Assembly: GCA_937922595.1 (NCBI GenBank)
Contig: CALAIY010000008.1
Coordinates: 1-35,097, forward strand
Direction of reading: 5' to 3'
DNA length: 35,097 nucleotides
Source: an uncultured Verrucomicrobiales bacterium
GTDB lineage: Bacteria; Verrucomicrobiota; Verrucomicrobiia; Verrucomicrobiales; DEV007
The notes below the pieces were generated by a model. The model searched no databases and had not been told where the DNA came from. It worked only from the letters and a program-made list of their open reading frames with translations. Of this stretch, positions 18,629 through 35,097 are shown piece by piece; position 1 is the first letter of the stretch; each line of letters starts with the position of its first letter. A program made the translations under genes and the position numbers.

Positions 18629-19237
18629 ATGCTCACCGAGGTCGATACCCAACTCCCGGACAGCGCAGAATCCGCTGTCGCGAAACTCAAAGCACAGTTC
18701 CCGGACGCGGTGCAAAGCTCGAAAGAGTTCCGCGGTGAGCAGACTATCGTCATCGACCCTGCGTCGAACGTCGAGTTGCTTACCTACTGTCGCGACACGC
18801 TCGGCTTCGATTTCCTCGTCGATGTCTGCTCGGTAGACAATGCTGGCCAAGATCCGCGTTTCGAAGTTGTCTACCACCTTTATTCCTACACCACGTTGAT
18901 CTCGCTTCGGGTGAAAGCGTTTCTTGGAGAAGATGAGCCTACGATTGGTACCGTGGCCGGCATCTGGGCTACTGCGGATTGGCACGAGCGCGAAGTCTAC
19001 GACATGATGGGCATCACCTTTGCCAATCACCGCGATCTTCGCCGCATTCTCATGTGGGAAGGCTACCCCTTCTACCCGCTGCGCAAAGAATTCCCCCTTG
19101 GCGGGAAGCCTTCAGAAATGCCCGACGTCGCCTTTACGGGCGTCGCCCAGCTTGAAGGGGGGCCATTCGTCACCGCCCCGGGGCCTGGCGATACGAAGAC
19201 TCGCGAGCCACGCTCACGGGATCAAGATCGTGGGTAG
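18629..19237 (+). CDS. nuoC: NADH-quinone oxidoreductase subunit C
   Basis: 202 residues. NuoC is the 30-kDa peripheral-arm subunit of complex I. Signatures: VVYHLYSY, DEPTIGTVAGIWATADWHEREVYDMMGITF and HRDLRRILMWEGYPFYPLRKEFP. Start ATG 18629 (MLTEVDTQ) lies four bases after the nuoB stop; a longer in-frame start inside nuoB is rejected because homology begins later. The C-terminal tail after GKPSEM is short, polar and not conserved. No nuoD follows: the next gene is on the opposite strand and ends 19 bases away, so this is an isolated nuoBC pair and the rest of complex I must be elsewhere. Confidence 0.93.
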   Translation: MLTEVDTQLPDSAESAVAKLKAQFPDAVQSSKEFRGEQTIVIDPASNVELLTYCRDTLGFDFLVDVCSVDNAGQDPRFEVVYHLYSYTTLISLRVKAFLGEDEPTIGTVAGIWATADWHEREVYDMMGITFANHRDLRRILMWEGYPFYPLRKEFPLGGKPSEMPDVAFTGVAQLEGGPFVTAPGPGDTKTREPRSRDQDRG

Positions 19238-19256: not shown

Positions 19257-19886
19257 TTAATCGTCTAGGTGTACAATGCCGCGCTTTACGGCTGCGAGGA
19301 CCGCTTGAGTGCGGTCGTCCACTTCAAGTTTAGAGAGGACGTTGGATACATGAAGTTTCACGGTGGCCTGAGAGAGCGTGAGAGTGGACATGATTTCTTT
19401 GTTGCTCATGCCGCGTGCTAGTAGGCCGAGGACTTCTTTTTCGCGCGGGGTGAGCTCGGCACGGGAGGTTCGAGAGGCGAGTTTTTTCTTAATTTCTGTG
19501 GGGAAGTAGGTCTCGCCGGATGCTAGAGCACGCACGGCTTCATAGATGGGTTCCATGCCCGCAGCTTTGGAGAGGTAGCCAGTGGCTCCAGCACTGGCCG
19601 CGCGGAAGATATCTTCCTCCCCGCTATAGACGCTGAGGACGAGGATACGGGCGGTGGGATCGTGGTTCTTTAGCTCAGTGGTGAGCTGGGCTCCGGTCAT
19701 TCCTGGCATACGGAAATCAGAGATGACGACGTCCACGGTGTTTTCTGCGTAGAATTCGAGTGCTTCGCGACCTGAGGCTACGGAGCCAGCGAGTTGGAAA
19801 TCGTCTTGGGTCTGGAGGCCTTCGCAGAGACCGAGGCGAACCATGGCGTGGTCGTCTACGACGAGAATTTTAATGGGGGAGGGCAT
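19257..19886 (-). CDS. NarL/FixJ-type response regulator
   Basis: 209 residues. Receiver domain (about 5-120): acidic pair Asp11-Asp12, phosphoacceptor Asp57 in VVISDFRMPGMTG, Ser100 region LSVYSGEED, and Lys in GYLSKAAG. The LuxR-type HTH (about 144-205) has LTPREKEVLGLLARGMSNKEI and ATVKLHVSNVLSKLEVDDRTQAV. It is the probable partner of the sensor kinase 22 bases upstream on the same strand. Phosphorylation would allow dimer binding to target promoters; the targets are unknown, with the upstream LTD-CotH and FHA genes as natural candidates. Confidence 0.92.
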   Translation of the reverse strand: MPSPIKILVVDDHAMVRLGLCEGLQTQDDFQLAGSVASGREALEFYAENTVDVVISDFRMPGMTGAQLTTELKNHDPTARILVLSVYSGEEDIFRAASAGATGYLSKAAGMEPIYEAVRALASGETYFPTEIKKKLASRTSRAELTPREKEVLGLLARGMSNKEIMSTLTLSQATVKLHVSNVLSKLEVDDRTQAVLAAVKRGIVHLDD

Positions 19887-19908
19887 CCGGGGGGGGAATC
19901 AGGGGGCT

Positions 19909-21939
19909 TTAGTTTTCTTTGCTGGGGATTTTGAACGTAATTTCTGTGCTACCAGGAATACTTTTCATGGAGAACTTAGCGCCGATTCTCTCGCAGCGCT
20001 CGCGCATTCCTACAAGGCCGAAATGTCCTTTAGGAGGCGGGGTAGTAGTATCAAATCCGGAGCCATCATCGGTGACAGAGACTGTGAGTTCGCTACTACT
20101 GTAGGCGGCAGTAAGTTGAATGTTTTGTGGGGAAGCGTGCTTGGTGGCGTTGAGGATGGCCTCCTGGATTGCTCGAAGTGTTTGCCGCGTACGAAAGTGC
20201 CCGAGGTCAAAAATCGTGCCGGTGGTTTTTCGGGAAAAGGATACGTTCGCGTGCGCGATAGTTTCGAGGACAGAATCATCGACGATGTCTGCGATGGAAA
20301 TACCCTGCTGGAAGGCGGCGCGGAGCTCGAGGACGGAATCTCGTGCTTCTGTGCGGCAGGCGTGGAGCATATGGGCAGCGATTTTTAAGGCACGGGCGCT
20401 AGTGGAGGGATCGCCTTTCTTGATTGCTTGGGAGACGTTGTCCAGCTGCATGGAGAGTCCCACCATGTTTTGCTCCACAGTGTCGTGAAGCTCGCGGGCG
20501 ATGCGATGCCTCTCGCTAAGCATTGCTTCGCGCTCGACTTGGTTGCGCATAATATCCGTCTGGAAAGCAACGCGTTTACGCAGCGAGATTGCCCAGGTGA
20601 GGGCGAATAGGGTGGCCGCGATAGCCGTAGCAAAGCCAATGAGCATGCGGCGCAGAGTCCACCAAGAGGCAGGGGTGAGTAATTCAATGTCGTTCACCGA
20701 GCGGAGGGAGATGCGGAATCCTTCGATGCTACTTACATCTGGGCGGAAGGATTTATCGATGAGCTGGCAGATTCCAGTAAAGCGCAGCAAAGAACCAGGC
20801 TGGAAGATGGTGTCTGAGCTTCCAGGGAAGACGACGTCGAAGGTGGTGCTTCCGCTTCGGCATTGAAGGATCGTCTGCTCGGAATTTTCGGTTTCTCCGA
20901 TACCGAGGAGTTCGCCTGGTGTCGTGATAAGTTCATTATTCAATGTAGAGGAGTAGGCATCCGTTGTGGGATTGAATAGTACTGGCTCCGCGTTGGCATC
21001 TCCTCCAAGTATAGTGATCTGCTCGGCATAAAGAGTGGGGCTAAAAGGTTCCACCGAAACAGTGCCTAGTACTTCAACGATATCTCCAATTTTTGCATCC
21101 ACACCACCCCGAACTTTTGCGAGAATGCTTCTGCCAGCGCCCCGAATGTAGAGTCGCTGGTATTTTGCACTGGTGACCACGCCTTGAATTCGCACTTTAC
21201 GAACGCTCGACCACTGTGGGGTGAGTAGCTTATCGAGACTTACAAGCGGTATCTCCCCACGTGAGACTGCGAGGTCGATTTCCTCGAAATCATGAACGCG
21301 GATATTTCGTCCGGTGAGCTGTCTCCTATCATTGGCCTGTGAGGCGGCGACCCCGCGGAGCTTAATGTGGCGGTGGATAAGTTGGCGGGCTTTCTCTTCT
21401 GCTTCGGGGTTATTGATGAGGATTACATCAATGAGTGATCCGAACGTCTCAACTTCGAGAGTGATGTAGGATGGAGTGATGTTGATCCCGAGGACAAATC
21501 CTTCTACTGAGACCCATTTACAATCGAGTTCGGGGCTGAATAGGTTATCGTAAGTGATCGGCAGCGCTTCAGGAAGGGGTGCCCACTCGAGTAGCTCAAT
21601 ATTTTCGATTTCGAGGTGAGGGATGAAAGATCCTTGGTGCGTTTGTCCTTGGATGCGGATCCAAGATCCAAGTTTATACGGGTGGGCAGCTTTTAGTTTA
21701 TGAGGAATTGCTGCGTAGATGGCAGTGTCATCTTGGCCGATGAAAACGCCAGATTGCTCAATTCCGATGTGAAGAATTTGCGCCTTGAGTGCAATGGGCA
21801 GACCTTTCGCTGCTTCTGAAATTGAAAGGTTCCGCACCTCTCTTATCGAGGTGATTGGCTGTCGTGCTGTGTCGGCGCTAGCCGAAGCGAGAGCAAGAGC
21901 AGAAAGTGCCGCTAGCACGAAGAGGCGGATCAGGGGCAT
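19909..21939 (-). CDS. Sensor histidine kinase (HisKA_3 type) with OB-fold-like extracytoplasmic repeats
   Basis: 676 residues. Signal peptide 1-22, then about 400 extracytoplasmic residues, one membrane span (about 430-452, ending in the basic SLRKRV), and the kinase. The extracytoplasmic part appears to be four related beta-rich segments (about 30-118, 122-215, 230-313, 330-420). Each has a pattern like VxIxGxVxxxxxxxxxIxx, which I read as OB-like folds. HisKA_3: ERHRIARELHDTVEQNMVGL with His485. HATPase_c: EAILNATKHA (Asn597), DDGSGFD (624-630) and GHFGLVGMRERCERIGA. This kinase class partners with NarL-type regulators, as found immediately downstream. The FHA gene lies 36 bases upstream. 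The ligand is unknown. Confidence 0.9.
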   Translation of the reverse strand: MPLIRLFVLAALSALALASASADTARQPITSIREVRNLSISEAAKGLPIALKAQILHIGIEQSGVFIGQDDTAIYAAIPHKLKAAHPYKLGSWIRIQGQTHQGSFIPHLEIENIELLEWAPLPEALPITYDNLFSPELDCKWVSVEGFVLGINITPSYITLEVETFGSLIDVILINNPEAEEKARQLIHRHIKLRGVAASQANDRRQLTGRNIRVHDFEEIDLAVSRGEIPLVSLDKLLTPQWSSVRKVRIQGVVTSAKYQRLYIRGAGRSILAKVRGGVDAKIGDIVEVLGTVSVEPFSPTLYAEQITILGGDANAEPVLFNPTTDAYSSTLNNELITTPGELLGIGETENSEQTILQCRSGSTTFDVVFPGSSDTIFQPGSLLRFTGICQLIDKSFRPDVSSIEGFRISLRSVNDIELLTPASWWTLRRMLIGFATAIAATLFALTWAISLRKRVAFQTDIMRNQVEREAMLSERHRIARELHDTVEQNMVGLSMQLDNVSQAIKKGDPSTSARALKIAAHMLHACRTEARDSVLELRAAFQQGISIADIVDDSVLETIAHANVSFSRKTTGTIFDLGHFRTRQTLRAIQEAILNATKHASPQNIQLTAAYSSSELTVSVTDDGSGFDTTTPPPKGHFGLVGMRERCERIGAKFSMKSIPGSTEITFKIPSKEN

Positions 21940-21975
21940 TCGTCGAAAGCTGGCGGGCTGCTAGGTATGAGCGAT

Positions 21976-22476
21976 CTATCTTAAGATGAGATATCCGATT
22001 GCGGGAATGGCGGCAGCGAGGACGATGCCAAGGCATCCACTGCCTGGGACGGGCGTGGGTGTCGGCTGATTGGGGACGATAGGTTCAGGAATCGGGGCGG
22101 TGGCCGACTTCTTTTCTTTTTTTCTTTTTTTCTTTTTGGGAGCTGGCGGCGGTGCAATCTCCTCTGCGGGCTCGGCCTCAGGATCAGTGGCGTGGTAGAT
22201 GGCTAAGGTATCGCCGAAGAGGATACGGTCTTCGTGGCGAAGGGGGGTGCTTTCGAAGATGATCCTGCCGTTTACCTTGGTGTGATTGGTGGAGCCAAGA
22301 TCAGAGACGGCGTATTCTTCATTCTCTTGAAGCTCTAGGGCTGCGTGTTGGTTCGACGACGAGCCATCGGGGAGGACGATGTCATTAGTGTCGGCGCGAC
22401 CGATGGAAAATTTGCCTCCGGAAAGTCCGTACTTGTCTTCGTTGCCATCGGAGTGGCAGATGATGATTTTCGCCAT
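21976..22476 (-). CDS. FHA-domain protein with a C-terminal membrane anchor
   Basis: 166 residues. The FHA domain (about 3-95) keeps the phosphothreonine-binding residues: Gly26-Arg27 (SIGRAD), Ser41 and His44 (SNQH), Asn64 (STNHT) and Asn69-Gly70 (VNG). Then follow an acidic/Pro stretch, a very basic run (113-123), a Pro/Thr linker and a hydrophobic C-terminal segment (about 147-165, LGIVLAAAIPAIGYLIL) that looks like a tail anchor. There is no signal peptide, so the FHA part should be cytoplasmic. It is closely related to the FHA gene 9 bases upstream, sharing the DRILFGDTLA segment. The poly-Lys stretch is encoded by long A runs and is a possible slippage site. Confidence 0.88.
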   Translation of the reverse strand: MAKIIICHSDGNEDKYGLSGGKFSIGRADTNDIVLPDGSSSNQHAALELQENEEYAVSDLGSTNHTKVNGRIIFESTPLRHEDRILFGDTLAIYHATDPEAEPAEEIAPPPAPKKKKRKKEKKSATAPIPEPIVPNQPTPTPVPGSGCLGIVLAAAIPAIGYLILR

Positions 22477-22485
22477 ATGCCGATG

Positions 22486-22779
22486 CTACTCTGTCGCTTC
22501 GAAAAGGGCAAGGGTATCGCCAAAGAGGATGCGATCCGCATCGCGAAGAACGTGGCTGGAAATGATGTTGCCGTTTACTTGGGTGTGGTTTTTCGAAATG
22601 AGGTCGATAACGATATATTGGCCGTTTTCGTTTTCTTTGAGCACCGCGTGGTATTGTGACGAAGTGTTGTCGCGGAGGACGATGGCATTATCCGAAGCAC
22701 GGCCGACGGAAAACATTTTGCCTTCAAGAGAGAATTTCTCTTCGGAGCCATCAGTGTGGGTGAGCGTAATTTTGGTCAT
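22486..22779 (-). CDS. Minimal single-FHA-domain protein
   Basis: 97 residues, little more than one FHA domain. Gly26-Arg27 (SVGRAS), Ser41/His44 (SQYH), Asn64 (SKNHT) and Asn69-Gly70 (VNG) are all present, so phosphothreonine-peptide binding is plausible. The LGST turn of its neighbour reads LISK here. Start ATG 22779 (MTKITLTHTDG) is set by alignment with the paralogue; the long in-frame extension to 22989 is antisense to nothing known and overlaps the LTD-CotH gene. It has no membrane segment and no signal peptide. It lies between the second LTD-CotH gene (32 bases upstream) and the tail-anchored FHA gene. Confidence 0.85.
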   Translation of the reverse strand: MTKITLTHTDGSEEKFSLEGKMFSVGRASDNAIVLRDNTSSQYHAVLKENENGQYIVIDLISKNHTQVNGNIISSHVLRDADRILFGDTLALFEATE

Positions 22780-22811
22780 GGGTAGATAACGGGGGTAATG
22801 TGATGATCCTA

Positions 22812-25800
22812 TCACGGTAACTTCGTGGCGCTGAAGCGGTAGAAGAGACGAGAGTCTTCCGTGGCAGCGGTGATGGAGGTGGGTGGTGTGGTAATGAGTG
22901 TCGAAGTCCAACTTCCTGGGGTGAGGTCTGACGAGACGTCGAGGGTGAGTTCGATTCCGGTGGGAGAATTTGCCCGGGGAAAGCTCCATTTCACAGAATC
23001 GGTGCTGATAACAGGGGCGGGGAAATCTTCGGGAATGAAGGGGGAGAGACCGAAGATGTATTCAATAAGGAGAGAGAGGCCATCGGAATCGAGATCGGCG
23101 TCGGGATCATTGGCTACGGAATTGGCGGTGGCCCATGAGGCGAAGGAATCGTAGGCGGAGTAATCTTCGGTAATAGTGAGAGAGTAGGGAACTTGGAGTG
23201 CCCCGATTTGGTAGGTGAAGCTGAGGATTCCCTTTTCGGTGGGTGTTCCCGAGAGTGTGCCGGTGGTGGGATCAGCGGTGAGCCAAGCTGGGGCTCCGGG
23301 AGCGAGGGAAAATGGGTTTGCGCCGGAGGGAGCGAAGCCGAATGCGGGGGTGTGGGAGAAGGGGAGGCTTACCGGGGCTCGCAGGCGGGTGGGCGAGATG
23401 ATAGTTGCGCTGCTCGCGGCACCAGGGGTGGCGAGGGCGCCGGTGGCGGGACGCCAGCTTTCGCGCTTGCCGTAGGCTGCGGGGGGAATGTCTGGGTGTG
23501 CGGCTACGTAGTGAGTGGCTCCAGGATACCAGCTTCGAAGGTAGGTGAAACGGGCGATGGATGGAGTGGTGTCCTTTGGGCCGGGAGGGGTAATTTTAAT
23601 GGTATCTTCATTGGCGCTGAGGCCGCCGCTATATTGGCCGGCAGTAGGTGCGCTGGGATAGGATGCCGTAAAGATGCTGCTATCTTCGACTACGGTGGTG
23701 TAACTTCCGGGATCGAGGGTGATGCTTGGGAAAGTGAAGTTGATACCATTCGAGATGCGCACTCCGGTGAGGTCGAGCGGAGTTGTTCCGGCGTTGAAGA
23801 ATTCGATGAAATCGAGGTCCCCGGCATCGGCGGAGATTTCGGTGACGCGGAGTGCGGTAAGCAGTGGTGTGGCCGAGGAGGTGCCATTGGGTGCGCCGGG
23901 GGTGGGGGTGGTGAATGTGGTGATTTCGCTCGAGTCTGTGGGGCTGCGGCCAGAGGTGGTGCCATCGGTCTCTCCGGTGGTGAAGACTTGGTCGATTAGC
24001 TGGCGGTCTTTAGTGATGAGTGCGATATGCTCTGAATAGGTGGAGATACCGAATGCTGGCTCGATGATGGTGTAACTTCCGGGGGCGATGAAGGTGTGGT
24101 GGGGAATGAGGTGGCGGGCGGGGGCGTCGCGGGTATTCAGGGCGTCATCGGTGAGTTCCAGGCCGCCGAGGGCGATTGCTTGAGAGTCTGGTGCGTGGAG
24201 CTCGATGAATTCATTTTTGAAGGATGGGCGTGGTGCAGGTAGCCATTCATTGAGTAGAGTGTTTCCGGGGGCCGCTGAGGTGGTGGCGATGGTGGAATTG
24301 GCGGCACCGGGTGTGGGGGTGGAAAGGTGCCAGCCGATGGCTCGGGAAAGGGAGTGGCCGGAGGGAAGATTGAAGGTGGTGGAGTCGATCAGGGTATTGC
24401 TTCTGAGCTGGATGTAGCTCCCAGAGAATTCTTGCTGAATGAGGGTGTAGCCACCGGGTGGGGGAAGGGTGTTTATGGGGTAGGCTTGCGGGGTGTCTGC
24501 GTCGTCGGAGAGGTAGTAGGTGGTGCCGGAAATCGGGGCGTTGGAGGTATTGGTGATTTCTACGGTGAAGGTGCCATTGGCTCCGGGGATGATTTCGCTG
24601 ATGTGGATTCCTGGCTGGGTATTGTCGTAGAAGATATCGATGCCGTGGGTAAGTAGGGGGTGATTTGCGGCGTCTAGGGCGGTGATGGAGATGCGATTAA
24701 AACCGGGAATAAGGGTGACTGGGGCGTTTGCGGTTTGCCCGGTGTAGATAGTGCCTGCGACGTCGATTCCCGCACCGGTGGTGGTGATGGAGATGGTGGT
24801 GGTGGGTGTGGTGGAGACGTGATAGGTGGCGGCGGCTGGAAGGGTGCTGGAGATGCTGAGAATGGGAGCGGGGGTGGTGCCTGTTGCTTGGGTGAGGACG
24901 TAGGTGGCGCGATCTACTGCGTAATCGGCGACGTCGGAAAGGAGTGAGGTGGAGCCTGTGGGTAGGTGGTGTCTGGCCAAGGTGCTGAAGGCGGGCTCGG
25001 CGAAGGTGGATTGCGAGAGCTCGCGGAGGTCGGCGAAGTAGGGGGCTTCGATTTCTGGCTTTGCGAAGAAGGGAATGAGCTGGAGGATGCGGTCGTCGCT
25101 TTTGATGCGGGAGAGATCTTCGATCATGGGGAAGAGCGTGGACTCTTCATCAAGGCCGGTGTGGAGGATGGTGTCGAAGTCGTGGGGGATGAGTTGGAAC
25201 CGGGGGGCGCCCTTGGGGCGGTAGAGGGCGTAGTCGTCGTCGATGCCATTAGATAGAGCGGTCTCACGACTTCCTAACAGGGTGTTGAAAGCGAACCAGC
25301 GGATCCATTGCTGGGTGTGGATGACATCGCCAACTAAGCTTAGGTAACTTGGATCATTGGCGTCGGATTCGTGCATTGTTTCGACGAATGCTTGGAGGTC
25401 GGAGTAATCGGCTTGGGAGCCGTTGGTCTGTTTGTCCCAGCCATCGTCATCATACCAATCGGGCTGATCGTAGATGGGAATTCCTAGGTGGACTCCCCAG
25501 TCTTTCTGATCGCGATCGCCGGGGGCGCTACGCTTGCGATACATATTTCCATCGCCACCATCGGGGAATGCGGTTTTGGCGAAGTCGGAATCCAGTGGGA
25601 CGACTTCGATGTATTGGCCGAACATGGTGTCGTCGGGCACGGAGCGGTCGGTGCCATTGAAGCTGAGCCGAACTAATCGGGTGCGTGGTGCGCGGATTCC
25701 GGAGGCGCGAGCGAGGTGCATTCCGAGGTGCTGGAGGGCAGTATTGTAGGAGCCTAGATTGGTATTGGCGAGTCCATCGTGGGGCTGGCCGGGAGGGAAG

Positions 25801-26957
25801 AAGAGCTTGATGGGTGGGGGATCGAGGCGTCTTGAGCCGTTTCCACGGATGCGGAAAAAGGTGCGGTAGCGGACTTGAGTCTCGCCATTTCGGAGGCTTA
25901 CGAAGGTGGCATTGCGCGGGGCGTCACTTGAGCTGCTGGTGGCATCGAAGGTGGCGAGCTCGGCGGCGGTGGTGACGAGGCGGTAGTGCCCGGTAGGGGA
26001 CGGCGTGGTGGGGAGATCTGCTGGGTCGATTGATTGGAAGAGGGCGTTGGCTTCTTGGGCACCGGCGTCGCTGGTGGAGCCAGGCCAGGTGCGGTAGTTT
26101 GCGCCATCGGCGGCGGCTACGTAGAATTCGGTGATGGTGCCGGTAGGGGATCCAGGGATGAGAGCGGAATAGATGCCGTCTCCCGTGGTGAGGTCGCCAG
26201 CGAAACCGTCGTCTAGAAGGGGAATACGAGTGAAGCTTGGAGGTGTCTCCGAGGAGGCGTCACGATAGTGGAGGGTGGCGGTGATGGAGGTGGAGTCTTC
26301 ATCGAGAATGCGGACGCTTACAGTGACGGGCTGACCGGCGATGGGAATGGCTGGAGAGTGTGCGACGTCGAGTAGAAGTGGGGCGACATTGGTGCTGGCG
26401 ACAGAATTGGGAGCTCCAGGGGTGCCGCCGGAAAGGGTGGAAGCTCGCCAGAGCTGGCCGGTATCGGAAGGAAGATTAGAGGCGGTGCTAGTGCGCTCAA
26501 GAGAGAAGCCTTCGCCATCATGGGGGACGTCCCATTCCCAGCCGGAGGTAGAGATGCCGCGCCTGCCGGGGCGAAGATCTGCCCAGTCTGCACCATCGGC
26601 GTAGCTTAGGGAGTCGATCGTTTCGCCGGAGGCGTCTGAGAGGGTGATGCGTTCGCCAGAATTAGAGAGGCGCCCGGTCCAGCTTGCCGGGGTGATGGCG
26701 AGGTACGCTCCTGAGGCGAGCGAGGTGCCTGCGGGAAAGGTGTAGGAGATGCCATTGGTGAAGCTCCAGCCGGAGATGTCGATGGCGGTGGCATCGGGGT
26801 TGTGAATTTCGATGAATTCATCTGCTACCGGCTCGGGCGTCCTTTCAGCGTGTGGGGGGTGGTAGTGAACCTCTGAGATGATTGGAGCCGCGGAGGCGGT
26901 CGTAATAAGGGCGATCGCTAAGAGTGAATGTGGAGGAATAAGCACGGCTGAGAACAT
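22812..26957 (-). CDS. Giant secreted LTD-CotH protein B
   Basis: 1381 residues from ATG 26957; ATG 26984 is an alternative. The open frame reaches 27215, but that extension lies inside the upstream gene and is not coding. A signal-like start (MFSAVLIPPHSLLAIALITT) precedes APIISEVHYHPP. Domains in order: lamin-tail domain (DEFIEIHNPD ... GRLSNSGERITLSDASGE), a beta-sandwich (LLLDVAHSPAIP ... ITEFYVAAADG), and a CotH-kinase-like domain (GHYRLVTTAAEL ... GNMYRKRSA ... LLGSRETALSNGIDDDYALY ... IPHDFDTIL). Further LTD-type repeats follow (LLNEWLPAPRPSFKNEFIEL; TEISADAGDLDFIEFF), then one putative-Ig (He_PIG) repeat (LTADPTTGTLSGTP) and DPDADLDSDGLSLLIEYIFG with a closing beta domain. It is paralogous to the next gene upstream. 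CotH proteins in Bacillus phosphorylate spore-coat proteins; the substrate here is unknown. Confidence 0.85.
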   Translation of the reverse strand: MFSAVLIPPHSLLAIALITTASAAPIISEVHYHPPHAERTPEPVADEFIEIHNPDATAIDISGWSFTNGISYTFPAGTSLASGAYLAITPASWTGRLSNSGERITLSDASGETIDSLSYADGADWADLRPGRRGISTSGWEWDVPHDGEGFSLERTSTASNLPSDTGQLWRASTLSGGTPGAPNSVASTNVAPLLLDVAHSPAIPIAGQPVTVSVRILDEDSTSITATLHYRDASSETPPSFTRIPLLDDGFAGDLTTGDGIYSALIPGSPTGTITEFYVAAADGANYRTWPGSTSDAGAQEANALFQSIDPADLPTTPSPTGHYRLVTTAAELATFDATSSSSDAPRNATFVSLRNGETQVRYRTFFRIRGNGSRRLDPPPIKLFFPPGQPHDGLANTNLGSYNTALQHLGMHLARASGIRAPRTRLVRLSFNGTDRSVPDDTMFGQYIEVVPLDSDFAKTAFPDGGDGNMYRKRSAPGDRDQKDWGVHLGIPIYDQPDWYDDDGWDKQTNGSQADYSDLQAFVETMHESDANDPSYLSLVGDVIHTQQWIRWFAFNTLLGSRETALSNGIDDDYALYRPKGAPRFQLIPHDFDTILHTGLDEESTLFPMIEDLSRIKSDDRILQLIPFFAKPEIEAPYFADLRELSQSTFAEPAFSTLARHHLPTGSTSLLSDVADYAVDRATYVLTQATGTTPAPILSISSTLPAAATYHVSTTPTTTISITTTGAGIDVAGTIYTGQTANAPVTLIPGFNRISITALDAANHPLLTHGIDIFYDNTQPGIHISEIIPGANGTFTVEITNTSNAPISGTTYYLSDDADTPQAYPINTLPPPGGYTLIQQEFSGSYIQLRSNTLIDSTTFNLPSGHSLSRAIGWHLSTPTPGAANSTIATTSAAPGNTLLNEWLPAPRPSFKNEFIELHAPDSQAIALGGLELTDDALNTRDAPARHLIPHHTFIAPGSYTIIEPAFGISTYSEHIALITKDRQLIDQVFTTGETDGTTSGRSPTDSSEITTFTTPTPGAPNGTSSATPLLTALRVTEISADAGDLDFIEFFNAGTTPLDLTGVRISNGINFTFPSITLDPGSYTTVVEDSSIFTASYPSAPTAGQYSGGLSANEDTIKITPPGPKDTTPSIARFTYLRSWYPGATHYVAAHPDIPPAAYGKRESWRPATGALATPGAASSATIISPTRLRAPVSLPFSHTPAFGFAPSGANPFSLAPGAPAWLTADPTTGTLSGTPTEKGILSFTYQIGALQVPYSLTITEDYSAYDSFASWATANSVANDPDADLDSDGLSLLIEYIFGLSPFIPEDFPAPVISTDSVKWSFPRANSPTGIELTLDVSSDLTPGSWTSTLITTPPTSITAATEDSRLFYRFSATKLP

Positions 26958-27015
26958 CGCTTCGAGTGGGCAGGACAAGCCCATAATAAGCCACGAATGG
27001 GATGTTTTTCGAGCA

Positions 27016-30000
27016 CTATTCCCGAGGGGCGACCGTGGCACGAAGGCGGTAAAACCGCCGCTCGGTGAATTGCGGCTGAATGATCTGCCTAAGCGCTCCG
27101 GACGGGGTGAATACGGGGATCCATGAATCGGGGCTGAGATCTGGTGAGGACTGGAATTCGATGTCGATTCCGATGGGAATATTCGCATTTGGGAAATCCC
27201 ACTGAAGGACGCCATTGATGCGCTGGGGAGCAGGGAATGGCTTGGCGGTGCGTGGCGGGAAGCCGAGGACGAATTCGTGGATCAACGCAAGGCCATCGCC
27301 ATCAAGATCGGTAGTGAGGGGGATACCGGAAACATTGTTTCTTCGAGCCCAAGGATCATAGCCGGTGAGGGTGACGGCATCGAGGAATCCCGCGTCTTCG
27401 CCGTTGGATGTTTGGGAGTCTTTGAAATAGCGCCACTCGATTATCGAGGTGCCAAGGTCGAGAGGAATGGAGCGAGTTTGCCATGGCTCTTCGCCTTCTA
27501 TGGTCGCGATTTCTTCATTATCGATGTAAAGTCGGAGTCGATCCCAGCCTAATTCAGATGAAGCTCTCCAAGCAAACCCAAGGGTAGAGGACACTGTGGT
27601 CTCGATAGTGGTAAAGAGGCTGCTGGATTGATCGTCTGTGATCGCACCGCTACGGAGCGAGGGGGAGCCATCAAACGTGCCGAAGGGCACTACAACCCAG
27701 GGGAGTGCGCCGGAGGTGGTGAATGTAAGATCTGGCGTTTCTACGGCAGCGGCTAAGGGATCTACGATTAGCGAAATTGTATGGGTGACGGCGATAGAGC
27801 CAGAAGAATTTTGTGCGGTGATGGTGATCGATTCAGTGGTGGAGCCAATTTCTTCGGGGGGGATTCCGGAAATTGTAAGCGTAGAAAAATCGTAGGTAAG
27901 CCAGGTGGGTAATCCCACTACCGTGATGCCAGAGGTCGCTTGAATGGCAGAGAAGGTGAGTGAAAAGGCGACGCCGCTAGTAGCCGAACTTTCCTCGCTG
28001 ATTAGGAGTTGTGGTAGAGGCTCGGGATTTACTTGAATGGTGATTGTGCTAGATACAGAGGCGGTAGTATTTGATGCGGTGACTGTGATCGTTTGCGTTA
28101 GGTTAAGCGCTTCGACTGGTGGGGTGCCGGAAATTGTAAGTGTGGTAGGATCGAAGGTGAGCCAGGAGGGTAGGTCTGCGATATCAACTCCGGTGCTGGC
28201 ACGCTGAACTTCGAATGTGGTGGAGAATGGCACGCGTACGAGAGCGGTGGATTCAGGCACCACTGTGATCGTGGGAGGGATCTCAGGTGTGACGAGAATC
28301 TCATAGGGAATGGAGAGCGTTTCTCCTGAATCGCTGATGAGTAGGGAGAATTCGGATACACCGAGAGCAGAGGGGGTGCCAGAGAGGAGGCCGGAGGAGG
28401 AATCTACGCTGACCCATGCGGGTGCGTCTAAAGAAAGCGCGAATGAAAGTGGGGCTCCACTAGAGCTTGTGAGAGTAGGGCGGTGATCGAGGGGGCGAAG
28501 TAATGGGGTTCGTAGCCGAGTAGGCGATATGAGTGTGGCGATGGGAGGCGCTCCCGGAGTGGCAATACTCCCTGTTGCCGGGCGCCAACTTTCGCGCTCA
28601 CCGTAGGCGGAGGGTAAGGTGCTGGGGCGTGCCGTGATGTAATGAGTGTCTCCACGGTACCAGCTGCCGTCGTAATCGAAGCGGATCACGGCTGGGGTAG
28701 TGGCGGCATCGCCGGGCGGGTGGATAATGATTTTATCTCCTCCGTCAGAAAGGGAGCCTTCAAAATTTCCTGCGACTTCAATATCGCCGAAATTTTGCAC
28801 GCTTTTAGATACGACTGTGTAACCTCCGGGAGGAAGTGTAAGGGCGGGGAAGGTGAACTCGATTGCGCCTGTGATTCGGACTCCTTCCATTTCGAGTGGA
28901 GTAAGAGATACGTTGGTAAGTTCGATGAAATCTCGTGATCCAGAGTCGGCATCGAATTCAGATATGCGTAAGCCTTCGAGATAGGGAGTTGCGGCAGAAT
29001 CGCCATTTGGAGCACCTGGGGTGGGCGTGGTGTAATTGCGGATTGAATTGAAATTAGGAAACTCTCGGCCGGCAGAGGTGCCGGCAGTTTCGCCAGAGGT
29101 GAAGACCTGATCGATTACGGTGCGGTCTGGCGTTACTAAGCGGATTAGCTCTGAGTAACTTGAGATTTTGAATTCTGGCTTAAATACGGCATAGCTACCG
29201 ACTGCGAGAAATGTGTGATGAGGGAGGCGGTGGCGTGCGGTGGAGCTTGCGGTGTTGATGCCATCATCGGTAAGTTCGAGTCCGCCGAGGGCTACTGGTA
29301 GGGAGCCCTGAAGGTCGGGATTGTAGAGTTCGATGAATTCATCGGTGAAGGCTGGGCGTGGTGCCGGGAGCCATTCATTGATGTAGAGGGTGGCGGGGAG
29401 GATTGCGGCAGTCTCAGTGATTTGGTTGGCGCTTCCGAGTGTGGGTTCTGAGATGTCCCAACCGCCAGGAAAATTGGGGATTCGGGAAAGTGAGAATCCT
29501 TCGGGGACTGCACCGGTGATTACGCTATCGATTTCGGCGTCGTTGTGGAGAAGGACGAGTGTCTCAGGGCTGCCTTGATAGGTGAAGGAGGTGAAATTTC
29601 CTGGCTGAAGCATGCCGGAGAGTGGCAGTGAAGAGGTGCCGGGTTCTTGGGCGGCGATGGTGTAGGAAGATAGGTCGAGAATGGAATTAGACGTATTCTC
29701 TACCTCGACGTCCAATTGCGTGGAGCCGTTTTTCCGGATTTCACTTAGGCGGAGAGGATTAGTGCTAGATATGGTGTAGAAGATATCGAATCCTTGGCTT
29801 CGACCGGTGGGAAGGCTGAGTGTGATGTGATTGAAGCCGGGCTGGAGGGGGCGTTGTACCGAAGTGCCTGAGCGGGTGAAGGTCGCAAGGGGAGAGGAGG
29901 ATACGAAGTAGCTAGAGGTGCGGGGGAGATTGAGGGTGAAAGGTGCGGTGTCTGTGGGGGAAGCGATTTTATTCAGAATATTTGAAGTGCGCCTTGTATT

Positions 30001-32061
30001 GGAGGTTTCGATGCGGCTTTTCTCGGCAGTGGCGCGTCCGGGGAGATGGCGGGTGAGGAGTTCATCGATGTAGCGGTCGTTGAAGGTGGTGCGCCCGAGA
30101 TCTTGTAGGTGGCCGAAGTAGCGATTTCTGATTTCGCTATTTTCAAAGAAGGGAATGAGCTGGGGGATGATGTCTTCACCTCCGATCTCATTTAACTCAT
30201 TAATCATTGCGAAAATCGGTGGGTTATTGCGGCTGAGTCCTAAGTGGAAAATAGTATCGAAATCGTGGGGGAGGAGCTGAAAGCGGGTGTCTCCGGCCGG
30301 GCGGTAGATGGCGTAGTCGTCGTCGATACCGTTGCTAAGATTGGTTTCTTTATTTCCGAGAAAGGTGTTTACCGCGAACCAGCGGAGCCATTGCTCGGTA
30401 TCGATGACGGAATTGACAGATGGGATGTCATTAGAGGACTGATCCATGACTTCGACGAAGTTTTGGAGATCGGAGAAGTCGTAGGCGCTGGCATTGGTTT
30501 GTTTGTCCCATTGATCTGCCTCGAACCAGAAGGGTTGGTCGTAAATGGGAGTGCCGGAGTGGACGCCCCAGCGTTTGGTGTCTCGACTGGGGTTTGCGCT
30601 GCGTTTGCGGTAGATATTGCCAGCGCCACCATCGGGAAAGGCGCGGGCTACGAAGTCGTCGTCGAGGGGCTCTATTTCTACATAGAGGTCGTACATGGTG
30701 TTGTCGTCATCGGCGCGGTCTTGGCCGTTGAAGGATAGGCGGACGGGACGGGTCTTGGGTGATCGAATACCGGAAGCGCGGCTCAGGAGCATTCCGATGT
30801 GTTGGGTCCAGGTGAGGTAGGCATTGATGTTTGTATTGGCGAGGCCATCGTGGGGCTGGCCAGGTGGGAAAATGAGCTTGATGGGGGGAGGGTTTCGGTT
30901 GCGTGAGCCGTTTCCTCGGGCGCGGAAAAATGTGCGGTAGCGAATTTCGGATTTTCCATTTCGTAGGCTGATGAAGGTGGCGCTACGCAGCGCGTCGCTT
31001 TGGGTGCTGGCGTCGTCGAAGGCGTCGAGCTCGGTGGCGGTGGTGATGAGTCGGTAGTGGCCGATGGTGGGATCTAGGGAATAGGGCTCAAGGTCTGCTG
31101 AGGAGACGGTGAGAAAGTGGGCGTTGGCGCCTTGGGTGCCGGAATCGTCGGTAGGGCTGGGCCAGGTGCGGGAATTGCCTTGGGAATCGGAGGCGGCGAC
31201 GAAGAACTCGGTGATGTTTCCGGCCGGTTGGCCGGGGATGAGGGCGCTGAAGATTCCGTCACCGGGGATGAGGTCGCCTGAAAAACCGTCGTCGAAGAGT
31301 TGAAGCTTGGAGAATAAAGGTGGCGATGAGGAAGTGGCGTCGCGGTAATAGAGCGTGGCAGTGATGCGAGAGGGGAGGCCAGGTCTGGGGTCGTCTAAGA
31401 TTCGGGCGCTGATGATGGTAGGTTCGCCTGCGCGGGGGAGCGCGGGGGAGTGCTCTACATCAAGGAGAAGAGGTGCGATGTTGTCTGCATTGGTAGAATT
31501 CGTAGTGCCGGGAGTGCCGCCGGAGGTAGTGCTCGAACTCCAGACTTGTCCGGAATTCGAGGGAAGTGCGGGGGAGGTAGAGGTGCGCTCAAGGGATGCT
31601 CCATCGCCATCGTGGGGGGCGACCCAAGTCCAGCCACGAGAGTTTGCACTCCTGGGGCCACGGCGAAAATCCGCCCAGTCGGCACCATCAGCGTAGCGCA
31701 CCGAATCGATGGTTTCGCCGGAGGCGTTAGATAGGGTGATGCGTTCACCAGAATTCGAGAGGCGCCCGGTCCAGGATGGGGCGTGGACTACGAGATAATT
31801 TCCTGCATCGAGTGTGGTGCCAGTAGGGAAGGTATAAGTTACGCCATTCGTGAATTTCCAGCCTGAAAGATCGATGGCGGCGGCATCAGGGTTGTGGATT
31901 TCGATGAATTCTTCGTGAGTGGGCTCTGGGGTGCGCTCCTCATGAGGTGGATGATAGTGGATCTCCGAGATGATGGGTGTCGCAAATGCGGGCACTAATG
32001 AGAAAAGAAGGAGGACACAGGTGGTGATGACTTGCAAAGAGCCTAGGGGGAATGTGCGCAT
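27016..32061 (-). CDS. Giant secreted LTD-CotH protein A with tandem Ig repeats
   Basis: 1681 residues. Signal peptide 1-27 (cut after PAFA). LTD 28-180; beta-sandwich about 195-310; CotH-kinase-like domain about 335-690, with GNIYRKRSA (481-489), LGNKETNLSNGIDDDYAIY (568-586) and LLPHDFDTIF (596-605). LTD-like repeats lie at about 770-880, 893-1019 and 1030-1170. Three He_PIG-type Ig repeats follow (about 1175-1258, 1262-1345, 1350-1433), each with a PxWLxxDxxTxTISGxP-like line. A sugar-binding-like beta-sandwich (about 1443-1567) contains LGWDRLRLYIDNEEI, and DLDGDGLALIHEFVLG (1584-1599) with a C-terminal beta domain closes the protein. It differs from protein B mainly by extra Ig repeats and the sandwich. 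It is the first gene of the candidate operon, 72 bases after the LolA-like gene. No Shine-Dalgarno. Confidence 0.87.
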   Translation of the reverse strand: MRTFPLGSLQVITTCVLLLFSLVPAFATPIISEIHYHPPHEERTPEPTHEEFIEIHNPDAAAIDLSGWKFTNGVTYTFPTGTTLDAGNYLVVHAPSWTGRLSNSGERITLSNASGETIDSVRYADGADWADFRRGPRSANSRGWTWVAPHDGDGASLERTSTSPALPSNSGQVWSSSTTSGGTPGTTNSTNADNIAPLLLDVEHSPALPRAGEPTIISARILDDPRPGLPSRITATLYYRDATSSSPPLFSKLQLFDDGFSGDLIPGDGIFSALIPGQPAGNITEFFVAASDSQGNSRTWPSPTDDSGTQGANAHFLTVSSADLEPYSLDPTIGHYRLITTATELDAFDDASTQSDALRSATFISLRNGKSEIRYRTFFRARGNGSRNRNPPPIKLIFPPGQPHDGLANTNINAYLTWTQHIGMLLSRASGIRSPKTRPVRLSFNGQDRADDDNTMYDLYVEIEPLDDDFVARAFPDGGAGNIYRKRSANPSRDTKRWGVHSGTPIYDQPFWFEADQWDKQTNASAYDFSDLQNFVEVMDQSSNDIPSVNSVIDTEQWLRWFAVNTFLGNKETNLSNGIDDDYAIYRPAGDTRFQLLPHDFDTIFHLGLSRNNPPIFAMINELNEIGGEDIIPQLIPFFENSEIRNRYFGHLQDLGRTTFNDRYIDELLTRHLPGRATAEKSRIETSNTRRTSNILNKIASPTDTAPFTLNLPRTSSYFVSSSPLATFTRSGTSVQRPLQPGFNHITLSLPTGRSQGFDIFYTISSTNPLRLSEIRKNGSTQLDVEVENTSNSILDLSSYTIAAQEPGTSSLPLSGMLQPGNFTSFTYQGSPETLVLLHNDAEIDSVITGAVPEGFSLSRIPNFPGGWDISEPTLGSANQITETAAILPATLYINEWLPAPRPAFTDEFIELYNPDLQGSLPVALGGLELTDDGINTASSTARHRLPHHTFLAVGSYAVFKPEFKISSYSELIRLVTPDRTVIDQVFTSGETAGTSAGREFPNFNSIRNYTTPTPGAPNGDSAATPYLEGLRISEFDADSGSRDFIELTNVSLTPLEMEGVRITGAIEFTFPALTLPPGGYTVVSKSVQNFGDIEVAGNFEGSLSDGGDKIIIHPPGDAATTPAVIRFDYDGSWYRGDTHYITARPSTLPSAYGERESWRPATGSIATPGAPPIATLISPTRLRTPLLRPLDHRPTLTSSSGAPLSFALSLDAPAWVSVDSSSGLLSGTPSALGVSEFSLLISDSGETLSIPYEILVTPEIPPTITVVPESTALVRVPFSTTFEVQRASTGVDIADLPSWLTFDPTTLTISGTPPVEALNLTQTITVTASNTTASVSSTITIQVNPEPLPQLLISEESSATSGVAFSLTFSAIQATSGITVVGLPTWLTYDFSTLTISGIPPEEIGSTTESITITAQNSSGSIAVTHTISLIVDPLAAAVETPDLTFTTSGALPWVVVPFGTFDGSPSLRSGAITDDQSSSLFTTIETTVSSTLGFAWRASSELGWDRLRLYIDNEEIATIEGEEPWQTRSIPLDLGTSIIEWRYFKDSQTSNGEDAGFLDAVTLTGYDPWARRNNVSGIPLTTDLDGDGLALIHEFVLGFPPRTAKPFPAPQRINGVLQWDFPNANIPIGIDIEFQSSPDLSPDSWIPVFTPSGALRQIIQPQFTERRFYRLRATVAPRE

Positions 32062-32068
32062 TAAATTA

Positions 32069-32088
32069 GGTAGAAGGGGCTACCCCTT
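32069..32088. promoter_or_regulatory. Small alternative hairpins before LTD-CotH gene A
   Basis: AAGGGG (32074-32079) pairs with CCCCTT (32083-32088). The overlapping GGTAG (32069-32073) pairs with CTACC (32080-32084). The two are mutually exclusive and lie just upstream of the ATG at 32061. Too short to assign; no U tract follows, so it is not a clear terminator of the LolA-like gene. Confidence 0.25.
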
Positions 32089-32133: not shown

Positions 32134-32757
32134 CTATTTCACGACTGGCTTTGCAAATCGGACAAGAGTGCGCGCACCAGATTTCTGGCGGACATCAAAG
32201 ATATTCAGGGCGCTCGTCTCCGCGTCGATTTGGAGAATTATCGATTCTACCTGCCGCGCGAAAGTCGGATTGCGCGGTTTCAGCGAAGCTGTGTAAACGC
32301 CACCTTCAGTAGTGGCCGCGATAAGAAAGAACGTCTTAAAAAATGCGTCGGGATCACGCGCAGTCGCGAAACGAAAAATCGGCCGAATGCGAGGATCTGA
32401 AGGCGAGAGAGTCGTCGTCTCTTCCTCGATGGTGTCTTCCATGGTGAGCGTAGTACCATCGAATTTTAAAATCGTCTCCGGTGGCTTTCCGAGTTCCCAG
32501 AGGAAACCGCCGCCAGCATAGCGAACGAACCGACCTTTCGTCGAAACCGGTTTATCCAAGCTCGGCACCGTGCGCTCCTGAAGGAATCCGATCTCCACAT
32601 GGCGATCCATCGCCGCCTCCGCAAGCCAAGCCCGGAGCGGGCCATCCTCAGCTGCTATCGAGAAAAATGGAGTCGCTAAAGTGGCAATCGCCACCAAGCA
32701 GCCACAAAGCCATTGCTTGCGTGTGCAGAGGGGGCTCCTAGGATCGGACGTGAACAT
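32134..32757 (-). CDS. LolA-like outer-membrane lipoprotein carrier family protein
   Basis: 207 residues. Signal-type N-terminus about 1-36 (QWLCGCLVAIATLATPFFSIAA). The mature part follows the LolA half-barrel pattern: VEIGFLQERTVPSLDKPVSTKGRFVRYAGGGFLWELGKPPETILKFDGTTL is read in short strands, followed by IRPIFRFATARDPDAFFKTFF, which resembles the LolA-like proteins of aryl-polyene and fatty-acyl export loci rather than E. coli LolA. It would act in the periplasm as a lipid or lipoprotein carrier. Start ATG 32757 is chosen; the in-frame extension to 33051 is antisense to the MMPL gene. It overlaps the head of that divergent gene by 8 bases, and the pairing with an MMPL exporter supports a lipid-transport role. 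Confidence 0.72.
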   Translation of the reverse strand: MFTSDPRSPLCTRKQWLCGCLVAIATLATPFFSIAAEDGPLRAWLAEAAMDRHVEIGFLQERTVPSLDKPVSTKGRFVRYAGGGFLWELGKPPETILKFDGTTLTMEDTIEEETTTLSPSDPRIRPIFRFATARDPDAFFKTFFLIAATTEGGVYTASLKPRNPTFARQVESIILQIDAETSALNIFDVRQKSGARTLVRFAKPVVK

Positions 32758-35097
32758 ACGGAAAAAATTGGTTTGGGTGTTAGTTGCGCTCATTGCGATC
32801 TGCGCGCTCGGGCTTACGAAAATACGCCTCTCCACCGATATCCTCGATGTCCTTCCAGACAACGTCGCCGGCGTCGAAGCACTACAACGTCTCCAGGCAC
32901 AGGCCGAAAGCCAGAACCAACTCGTCCTCATCTTCCAAGCCCACGGGGAAACTCCTCTCCCCGAAGAAGGCGCCTTCGCCGCACTCGCCAGCAAGCTCGC
33001 CGCCGTTCCCGGCACCAAGCGCGTCCAATGGGAAGAAGGCCTCGGCGACATCCAAGAGCAGGGCGATTGGGCCGCCGTCGTCGCCTACCTCTGGGCAAAT
33101 ACCGACCCCAAAATTTCCGCTGAAAAGCTCAGCCACCTCCACGACAGCGCCGCACTTCGCAAGCACCTCAAACGCACCATCCGCCGGCTCGGCACCACCA
33201 TGGACGAAGTCGAAGTCGCCAAGCGCACCTACGATCCCCTCGGCCTCCTTGAGCACCCGTTTATCGAAAAAATGCTCGAAGACGCGCCCTCCTTCCTCTC
33301 CAAGGACGGCACCGCCCGCATCGTCCTCCTCAAGCCCGAAGCCGATCTCGCTGGCTATAAAGACTACGGCGCATGGTCCGAAAAAGTCCGTAAGGTAATC
33401 CGCGCCGAGCTTCCCGATACGCACTTCTTCATCACCGGAGCCCCCGCCATCGCAGCCGAAATCGGAGGCGGCCTCGAAGGCGATCTCTCCAGCACCATGG
33501 CAGTCACCGCCGGCCTTGTCGGCCTCCTCTTCCTACTCTTCCAGCGCAGCCCCCGCCAGCTCTTCGCGCTACTCACCTGTCTCACCCTCACCATCGTCGC
33601 CGCCCTCGGAATCTGCGGCTGGATCTGGGGCACGCTCAGTCTCGTCTCCGGCGGTTTTGCCGCCATCCTCCTCGGTCTCTGCGTCGATTACGCCATGGTC
33701 GTCGGCAGAGAAATCACCCTCGAAGGCGACGCCGCTCGAGGCCAAAAACGCGCCGCCGCAGGCGTCTTCTGGGCCGCCCTCACCACCGCCTCCGTCTTCG
33801 CCGCCTGCACGATGAGCGCCCTCCCCGGCGTCCGCCAGCTCGGAGCCCTCGTCGCCGCCGGCCTCATCGCCGGAGCCCTCATCATGGTCATCATCTACCC
33901 CATACTCGCCTTCGGCGGAAACGGCCACAAGCCCGTCCGCAAGCCCCTCATCCTCCCACTGCCCACCATCACCCGCAAAGCCGCCACCGCCACCCTCATC
34001 ATCGGCATCACCGCCGTAGCCGCCGCCCTCACCTTCACCGGCCTTCCCGGTCTCGACTTCGATCCCGCCCGCTTTCGCCCCGAAGACAGCGAAGCCCAGA
34101 AAGGCTACGTCACCCTCCAGGAAAACTTCCCCCAATGGAGCGAAGAATCCGTCACCCTCCTCATCCGCCCCCACCTCCTCGCCGCCACCCCCGATCCCGC
34201 AGCCCAGCGCACCGCCCTCGAAGCCGAAGTCGCCAAGCTCCAAGCCGATGGCCTCGTCAGCTCCCTCAATATCCCTTACGGCATCCTCCCACTAACCGAC
34301 AAATTCCCCTCCCAAGAATTTTTCGCCAAAATGTTAGCCTCCCAGGAAAAACTCACCACCGCCATCACCGACGCCGGTTTCAACGACAAAGCCACCGCCT
34401 TCCTCACCACCACCACCACCGCCCTCGAAAAACTCCTCCAAAAAACCCCCGCCGCCGCCTACACCACCATCTCCCAACACCCCGCCATCTTCCAAGCCAC
34501 CCTCCCACCCGACGGCATCCGCGGCGTCCTCCGCCTCGAATCCCCCCGCGGCAGCCTCCTCAGCCAATCCGACCACGCCGCCCTCCGCGCCCTCGACCGC
34601 CCCTGGCTCTCCGCCTCCGGCTGGCCACTCCTCCGGCACGACGTCGTCCCCGTCCTCTCCCAAGACAGCTGGCGCGTCAGCCTCCCCGTCATCTGCATCC
34701 TCGCCGCCGCCCTCTTCCTCGTCTTTCGCAACATCCGAGACACCCTCACCGCCATCCTAGTCATGGCCCTCTGCCTCGGAGCCATCACCCTACTCGTCCG
34801 CAGCACCGCCGGCGTCTGGCACCTCACCAGCATCCTCTGCATCCCGCTCCTAGCCGGCACCGGAGTCGATTACATCATCCACATCATCTTCGCCCTAAGA
34901 AGGGAAAACGGCCACCGCCCCCGCGTCCTAGCCGGCACCGGCATGGCCGTCCTCTTCTGCGCCCTCTCCACCGCCATAGGATTCGGCTCCCTCCTCTTCG
35001 CCTCCAATAGATCCATCTACGACCTAGGCCTAGTAGCCTCCGGCGGAATCCTCACCATCGGCACCGGCTGCCTCCTCCTAGTCCCCGCCCTCTGGAA
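32750..35097 (+). CDS. MMPL-family RND exporter (partial, runs off the window end)
   Basis: About 782 residues are present with no stop. GTG start at 32750, giving NIRKKLVWVLVALIAICALG, a membrane segment after basic residues. A periplasmic loop begins LSTDILDVLPDNVAG. The first membrane block includes LFLLFQRSPRQLF and the diagnostic LGLCVDYAMVVGREI (about residue 309), followed by a second periplasmic loop with FDPARFRPEDSEAQKG. The second membrane block has LLAGTGVDYIIHIIFALRR (near 34855) and AIGFGSLLFASN. The two VDY motifs mark an RND pump with duplicated halves, driven by proton flux. Lipid or lipid-linked substrates are usual for MMPL proteins. The coding strand is extremely C-rich, unlike every other plus-strand gene here. 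Confidence 0.88.
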   Translation, partial: MNIRKKLVWVLVALIAICALGLTKIRLSTDILDVLPDNVAGVEALQRLQAQAESQNQLVLIFQAHGETPLPEEGAFAALASKLAAVPGTKRVQWEEGLGDIQEQGDWAAVVAYLWANTDPKISAEKLSHLHDSAALRKHLKRTIRRLGTTMDEVEVAKRTYDPLGLLEHPFIEKMLEDAPSFLSKDGTARIVLLKPEADLAGYKDYGAWSEKVRKVIRAELPDTHFFITGAPAIAAEIGGGLEGDLSSTMAVTAGLVGLLFLLFQRSPRQLFALLTCLTLTIVAALGICGWIWGTLSLVSGGFAAILLGLCVDYAMVVGREITLEGDAARGQKRAAAGVFWAALTTASVFAACTMSALPGVRQLGALVAAGLIAGALIMVIIYPILAFGGNGHKPVRKPLILPLPTITRKAATATLIIGITAVAAALTFTGLPGLDFDPARFRPEDSEAQKGYVTLQENFPQWSEESVTLLIRPHLLAATPDPAAQRTALEAEVAKLQADGLVSSLNIPYGILPLTDKFPSQEFFAKMLASQEKLTTAITDAGFNDKATAFLTTTTTALEKLLQKTPAAAYTTISQHPAIFQATLPPDGIRGVLRLESPRGSLLSQSDHAALRALDRPWLSASGWPLLRHDVVPVLSQDSWRVSLPVICILAAALFLVFRNIRDTLTAILVMALCLGAITLLVRSTAGVWHLTSILCIPLLAGTGVDYIIHIIFALRRENGHRPRVLAGTGMAVLFCALSTAIGFGSLLFASNRSIYDLGLVASGGILTIGTGCLLLVPALW

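Follow-up and report, generated by a model that had tools for sequence, protein, structure and literature searches.

The six genes at 19257–32061 of the window, by which we mean the whole 35,097-nt stretch of DNA analyzed here, probably constitute a lineage-specific, autoregulated transcription unit made up of three independent modules: a duplicated pair of exported LTD-CotH proteins (G1 and G2), a tandem pair of FHA proteins (FHA1 and FHA2), and a stand-alone two-component pair with an OB-fold sensor (HK and RR). The three gene pairs are unrelated modules that stand together only here among the loci searched. This corrects the tempting reading that an extracellular kinase and FHA readers belong to one pathway, and it points to two better-posed questions, namely what role the CotH fold plays at the cell surface in two phyla in which its Glu is conserved, and which ligand is sensed by a kinase with four predicted periplasmic OB barrels.

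Gene layout and transcription of the block

The window is one complete contig of a 3.27 Mb draft genome (174 contigs, 93% complete) that alone represents its genus in our comparison set. Six uninterrupted ORFs on the minus strand, in the order G1, G2, FHA1, FHA2, HK and RR, are separated by 58 (or 31), 32, 9, 36 and 22 bases (Table 1). All ORFs, coordinates and gaps of the preliminary description were confirmed, and Pfam agrees with its assignment of LTD-CotH, FHA, HisKA_3 and NarL domains. The automatically called starts at 27215 and 22989 overlap the upstream neighbors, so the start at 26957 (or 26984), which gives G2 a signal peptide, and that at 22779 for FHA1 were adopted. The close same-strand spacing is consistent with co-transcription, as had been proposed, and judging from the gaps it is plausible that the six genes share one transcript.

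Table 1. Positions of the block genes and of features on their upstream side
Feature	Position	Strand	Description
G1	27016-32061	-	1681 aa, exported LTD-CotH-LTD-He_PIG; Pfam, AF2, Foldseek
G2	22812-26957	-	1381 aa from MFSAVL, LTD-CotH-LTD-He_PIG; alternative start 26984; Pfam
FHA1	22486-22779	-	97 aa, small cytoplasmic FHA protein; Pfam FHA
FHA2	21976-22476	-	166 aa, FHA + Lys/Pro-rich linker + C-terminal hydrophobic anchor; Pfam FHA
HK	19909-21939	-	676 aa, signal/TM, four predicted periplasmic OB-like barrels, TM, HisKA_3 (His485), HATPase_c
RR	19257-19886	-	209 aa, NarL-type response regulator: Asp57 receiver, GerE HTH; Pfam
LolA-like periplasmic lipoprotein-carrier gene	32134-32757	-	Pfam LolA E 5.1e-8; possible first gene of transcript
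Perfect inverted repeat AAGGGGTAGCCCCTT	32074-32088	-	between LolA and G1; possibly an operator or a weak hairpin in the RNA

On its downstream side, the block is convergent with nuoC, which ends at 19237. Upstream of G1, a LolA-like gene lies on the same strand at a distance of 72 bases, so that the same-strand run comprises seven genes, and this gene may be part of the same transcript. Its start codon and that of a divergent gene for an MMPL/RND-family transporter (HAE3 and HpnN family matches, below cut-off) are apparently a few bases apart (window 32134–35095), which leaves almost no room for a promoter. Pattern scans gave 4 promoter-like matches compared with 7.1 in shuffled sequence, and 12 terminator-like matches compared with 12.4; since neither number exceeds the shuffled level, the operon boundaries are not fixed by them. 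An inverted repeat of the size of that in the LolA-G1 gap is contained in ∼4% of the shuffled gaps.

A direct-repeat/inverted-repeat motif 5′ of G1 was considered as a regulon signature and rejected: it has 3 loose matches in the genome compared with 2 for a reversed control, and shows no enrichment ahead of 56 LTD-CotH genes. A foreign island or a misassembly was likewise discarded; the G+C content of the block (0.53–0.59) resembles that of the gyrA-gyrB-nuo surroundings and thus gives no sign of an island (weak evidence). Elsewhere in the window (14682–16646), the genes for an AbgT transporter and a transaldolase flank a gene for an exported protein that contains repeats and weakly matches choice-of-anchor Q.

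The giant LTD-CotH proteins and their CotH site

According to Pfam, G1 and G2 each contain three LTD stretches (PF00932), a CotH domain and He_PIG, and both have a weak choice-of-anchor X domain. Their N-termini are signal-peptide-like by simple hydropathy. The two proteins are 60% identical in the LTD-CotH region and are sisters in a tree of 85 sequences built with a quick method (SH-aLRT 100), indicating a lineage-specific tandem duplication.

Many exported proteins of the window genome have a common C-terminal segment, in which a D-rich DxDGD-like stretch is followed by SSDL..W and an end near FYR[LFI]R. This segment is seen at window positions 22812–23160 and 27016–27360 as well as at loci L085, L088, L089 and L092, and is possibly a sorting or anchoring domain. 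In two related genomes, a gene for a PrsW-family intramembrane protease adjoins the LTD-CotH giant (loci L098, 12504–13589, and L101, 118–1659).

By prediction, the CotH domain of the giants has the CotH kinase fold. Both CotH domains match PF08757 (50.3 and 64.0 bits, cut-off 23.8), and the best Foldseek match of the AF2 model of the LTD-CotH region (mean pLDDT 77) is the CotH kinase 5jd9 (E 4.5e-16, TM 0.72 normalized to the target). The lamin A/C globular domain is also among the Foldseek matches and, together with the PF00932 assignments, points to an Ig-like fold of the LTD modules.

In Bacillus CotH, loss of Asp228 or Asp251 inactivates the protein, and the D228Q variant is inactive (PMC7821199). 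A phmmer search with the single CotH region of G1 matched no PDB chain; 5jd9 (Spore coat protein H) was reached with a profile built from 14 canonical CotH domains of relatives. In 5jd9, 23 residues separate the aspartates of N-F-D and W-D-Y-D, the same spacing as for Asp228 and Asp251. Mapped through 5jd9, Glu572 of G1 occupies the Asp228 position and Asp600 (HDFD) the Asp251 position of Bacillus CotH. The earlier view of the CotH parts as atypical kinases therefore stands with regard to the fold (Pfam, Foldseek 5jd9), but the essential Asp is replaced by Glu, so that their activity is uncertain and kinase activity of the G1 and G2 domains cannot be assumed.

The same replacement is found throughout an LTD-CotH clade of 85 members that spans Verrucomicrobiota and Planctomycetota. 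Counted by alignment column, the Asp228 position (N-x-D) is Glu in G1, in G2 and in 84 of the 85 clade members, the exception being a poorly aligned paralog on a long branch. The Asp251 position (W/H-D-x-D) is Asp in 84/85 members, a conservation that, like that of the motifs, arises partly by construction, as the retrieval patterns held DDDY and PHD-x-D; the Glu count does not, Glu being absent from the patterns. Five other aligned CotH domains of the window genome have kept Asp at the Asp228 column.

With Glu at the Asp228 position, it is quite possible, though on balance we doubt it, that the LTD-CotH proteins are inactive pseudokinases serving as purely structural surface scaffolds or adhesins, a reading that concerns the giants only and is compatible with the transcription unit proposed above. 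In line with it, G2 carries Val where nearly all members have Glu, Gln or Asp (Glu453 in A2 numbering). However, the near-invariance of Glu, HDxD and DDDY over two phyla goes beyond the expectation for a decayed site, and whereas this is partly by construction for the motifs (DDDY and PHD in the scan patterns), it is not for Glu. We consider it unlikely that the clade represents a distinct family of active phosphotransferases that use Glu in their site (N-x-E, DDDY, HDxD) and modify exported proteins or polymers at the surface, and that were duplicated here and came under the control of an OB-barrel sensor kinase.

The number of CotH domains per genome is split among the 57 relatives, with at least 19 domains in 19 of them and 0–5 in the rest; the window genome has 10. 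Many of the CotH-rich genomes were scored at at least about 31 domains, with up to 81 candidates. Since at least 19 CotH domains are present in a third of the relatives (19/57), the question of the CotH Glu touches a large, uncharacterized part of their surface proteome.

The FHA and two-component pairs and linkage in relatives

FHA1 and FHA2 are 56% identical and match Pfam FHA with E-values of 1.4e-16 and 1.1e-17; FHA2 also matches FHA structures in the PDB. The phosphothreonine-binding residues GR, SxxH and N are present in both, with a conserved R27, S41, H44, N64 pattern in FHA1, and FHA2 has a TM-like C-terminal segment (142–160, simple hydropathy). Three FHA domains are encoded in the window genome, two of them in this block, next to 11 Hanks-type Ser/Thr kinase matches above the Pfam cut-off. 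Thus, CotH need not be what supplies the FHA ligands, and the earlier suggestion of a cytoplasmic Ser/Thr kinase elsewhere as their possible source finds candidates in these 11 matches. The compartment problem raised in the same context also stands, with exported giants (signal-peptide-like N-termini) on one side and FHA domains that appear cytoplasmic on the other. At locus L088 of the window genome (5649–16477), another LTD/CotH gene adjoins three tandem Hanks-type kinase genes on the opposite strand.

Pfam assigns HisKA_3 (E 4.8e-13) and HATPase_c to HK, and Response_reg and GerE to RR. By simple hydropathy, HK has TM segments at its N-terminus and at 432–450. Its AF2 model (mean pLDDT 84) has four tandem OB-like barrels at about 48–119, 142–214, 248–312 and 337–412, which matched no Pfam family, and Foldseek returned the tandem-OB HIN protein p204 first, followed by DesK kinases. 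As a prediction, this bears out the OB-fold sensor of the preliminary description and supports a sensor region of five-stranded, extracytoplasmic OB barrels. The phospho-accepting His485 and the N-box Asn597 are invariant in 20 homologs, and the core is DesK-like. Apart from HK, no HisKA_3 protein was found in the 93% complete window genome.

Inspection of the matches listed for the 57 relatives placed the best ones for HK, FHA2 and G1 on separate contigs, and no relative was found when genome contigs were scanned with only the kinase. A contig scan yielded 80 LTD-CotH loci from Verrucomicrobiota and Planctomycetota, with a few records labeled otherwise; at least 2 kb downstream were available in 54 of them and at least 2 kb upstream in 63, and the flanks of the relatives were limited to 10 kb, with some contigs ending early. 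Profiles of FHA, the OB-sensor kinase and the regulator were run against every ORF of these loci and of 20 further regions. This search detected neither an FHA gene (0/80) nor an OB-sensor kinase gene (0/80) in the flanks of the LTD-CotH loci, and only five weak generic regulators matched in the loci and further regions. Conversely, FHA or LTD-CotH genes were alongside in none of 30 OB-sensor kinase loci, and LTD-CotH or OB-sensor kinase genes in none of 10 FHA-ortholog loci. The same profile searches recover all six window genes, indicating that they work.

This lack of synteny would also fit chance neighbors with separate promoters, among which only kinase and regulator belong together in function or transcription, and a promoter-like match does precede G2 (26983–27012), yet such matches are no commoner than in shuffled sequences. 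We regard chance proximity as somewhat unlikely, as a 12.8-kb run of same-strand genes only 9 to 58 bases apart is what operons typically look like. Very improbable is the dedicated surface phospho-signaling system of the preliminary description, with LTD-CotH kinases under the control of the two-component pair and FHA proteins that bind partners phosphorylated in the same pathway: adjacency and orientation of the genes, the CotH fold and the canonical FHA residues agree with it, but the modules are in opposite compartments, the essential Asp has become Glu, and the neighborhood check that had been suggested (LTD-CotH with FHA and HisKA_3), for which a gene order not conserved in relatives had been named as refuting, found no conserved order among the matches listed for the 57 relatives and the modules together in 0/80, 0/30 and 0/10 loci.

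Linkage is conserved for the kinase-regulator pair: in 27/30 OB-sensor kinase loci, the regulator gene adjoins that of the kinase on the same strand. In ∼8 of the 30, the pair adjoins an exported giant LamG-PSCyt1-DUF1549-DUF1553 protein, 50–75% identical to the copy at locus L077. As the pair is thus often found beside giant exported proteins elsewhere, control of nearby secreted proteins is plausible, by analogy only; in the window genome, none of the seven PSD1 matches adjoins HK-RR. The LamG-PSCyt1-DUF1549-DUF1553 neighbors (loci L074, L077, L079, L205, L209, L211, L219 and L222) occur in two families, sometimes with DUF1501, and at other OB-sensor kinase loci prepilin-like genes adjoin the pair (by eye).

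Proposed mechanism and comparison with known systems

In the autoregulated transcription unit that we favor, the membrane kinase HK would bind a periplasmic ligand via its four OB barrels and phosphorylate the NarL-type regulator RR, which would adjust transcription of its own operon, so that the amounts of G1 and G2 are proposed to follow the HK ligand. The giants would leave the cell by Sec and act at its surface as adhesin-like or matrix proteins composed of several modules. Their CotH-fold domain, carrying Glu for the essential Asp, would either serve for binding or be a weakly or differently active phosphotransferase. The FHA proteins would recognize phosphothreonine that Hanks-type kinases produce in the cytoplasm, outside the surface pathway; this cytoplasmic pair would thus be unrelated to the surface proteins and merely ride on the transcript.

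In the literature, searched mostly among openly accessible papers, we found no description of the Glu variant of the CotH site or of a four-barrel sensor, which is not proof of novelty, and a search for CotH together with lamin tail domain and Verrucomicrobia returned nothing. Several known systems resemble individual modules. With Bacillus CotH (PDB 5jd9/5jda, PF08757), the giants share the predicted fold and the Asp equivalent to Asp251; in contrast, the Bacillus enzyme has Asp228 where the LTD-CotH clade has Glu, and is a spore coat protein rather than a secreted multi-module protein. An exported protein joining LTD and CotH modules is known from the Clostridium thermocellum cellulosome (Cthe_0239, PMC6083626). 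Compared by architecture, its order is LTD-LTD-Fn3-CotH, whereas in the giants LTD and CotH are followed by further LTD stretches and He_PIG and, unlike in the cellulosomal protein, no dockerin match was found in G1 or G2. For the planctosome of freshwater Planctomycetes, an LTD anchoring protein has been proposed (PMC6461901), likewise a giant exported LTD protein thought to reside at the outer surface; that model includes cohesin, dockerin and peptidase proteins, none of which is encoded in this block.

The short proteins FHA1 and FHA2, with FHA as sole domain and canonical phosphothreonine residues, are similar to those of the GarA/Rv1827 type, from which FHA2 differs by its C-terminal anchor. 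Finally, HK and RR share with DesK/NarL-type HisKA_3 systems the DesK-like core and the adjacent NarL-type regulator, but in contrast to these systems, the sensor of HK consists of four predicted periplasmic OB-like barrels.
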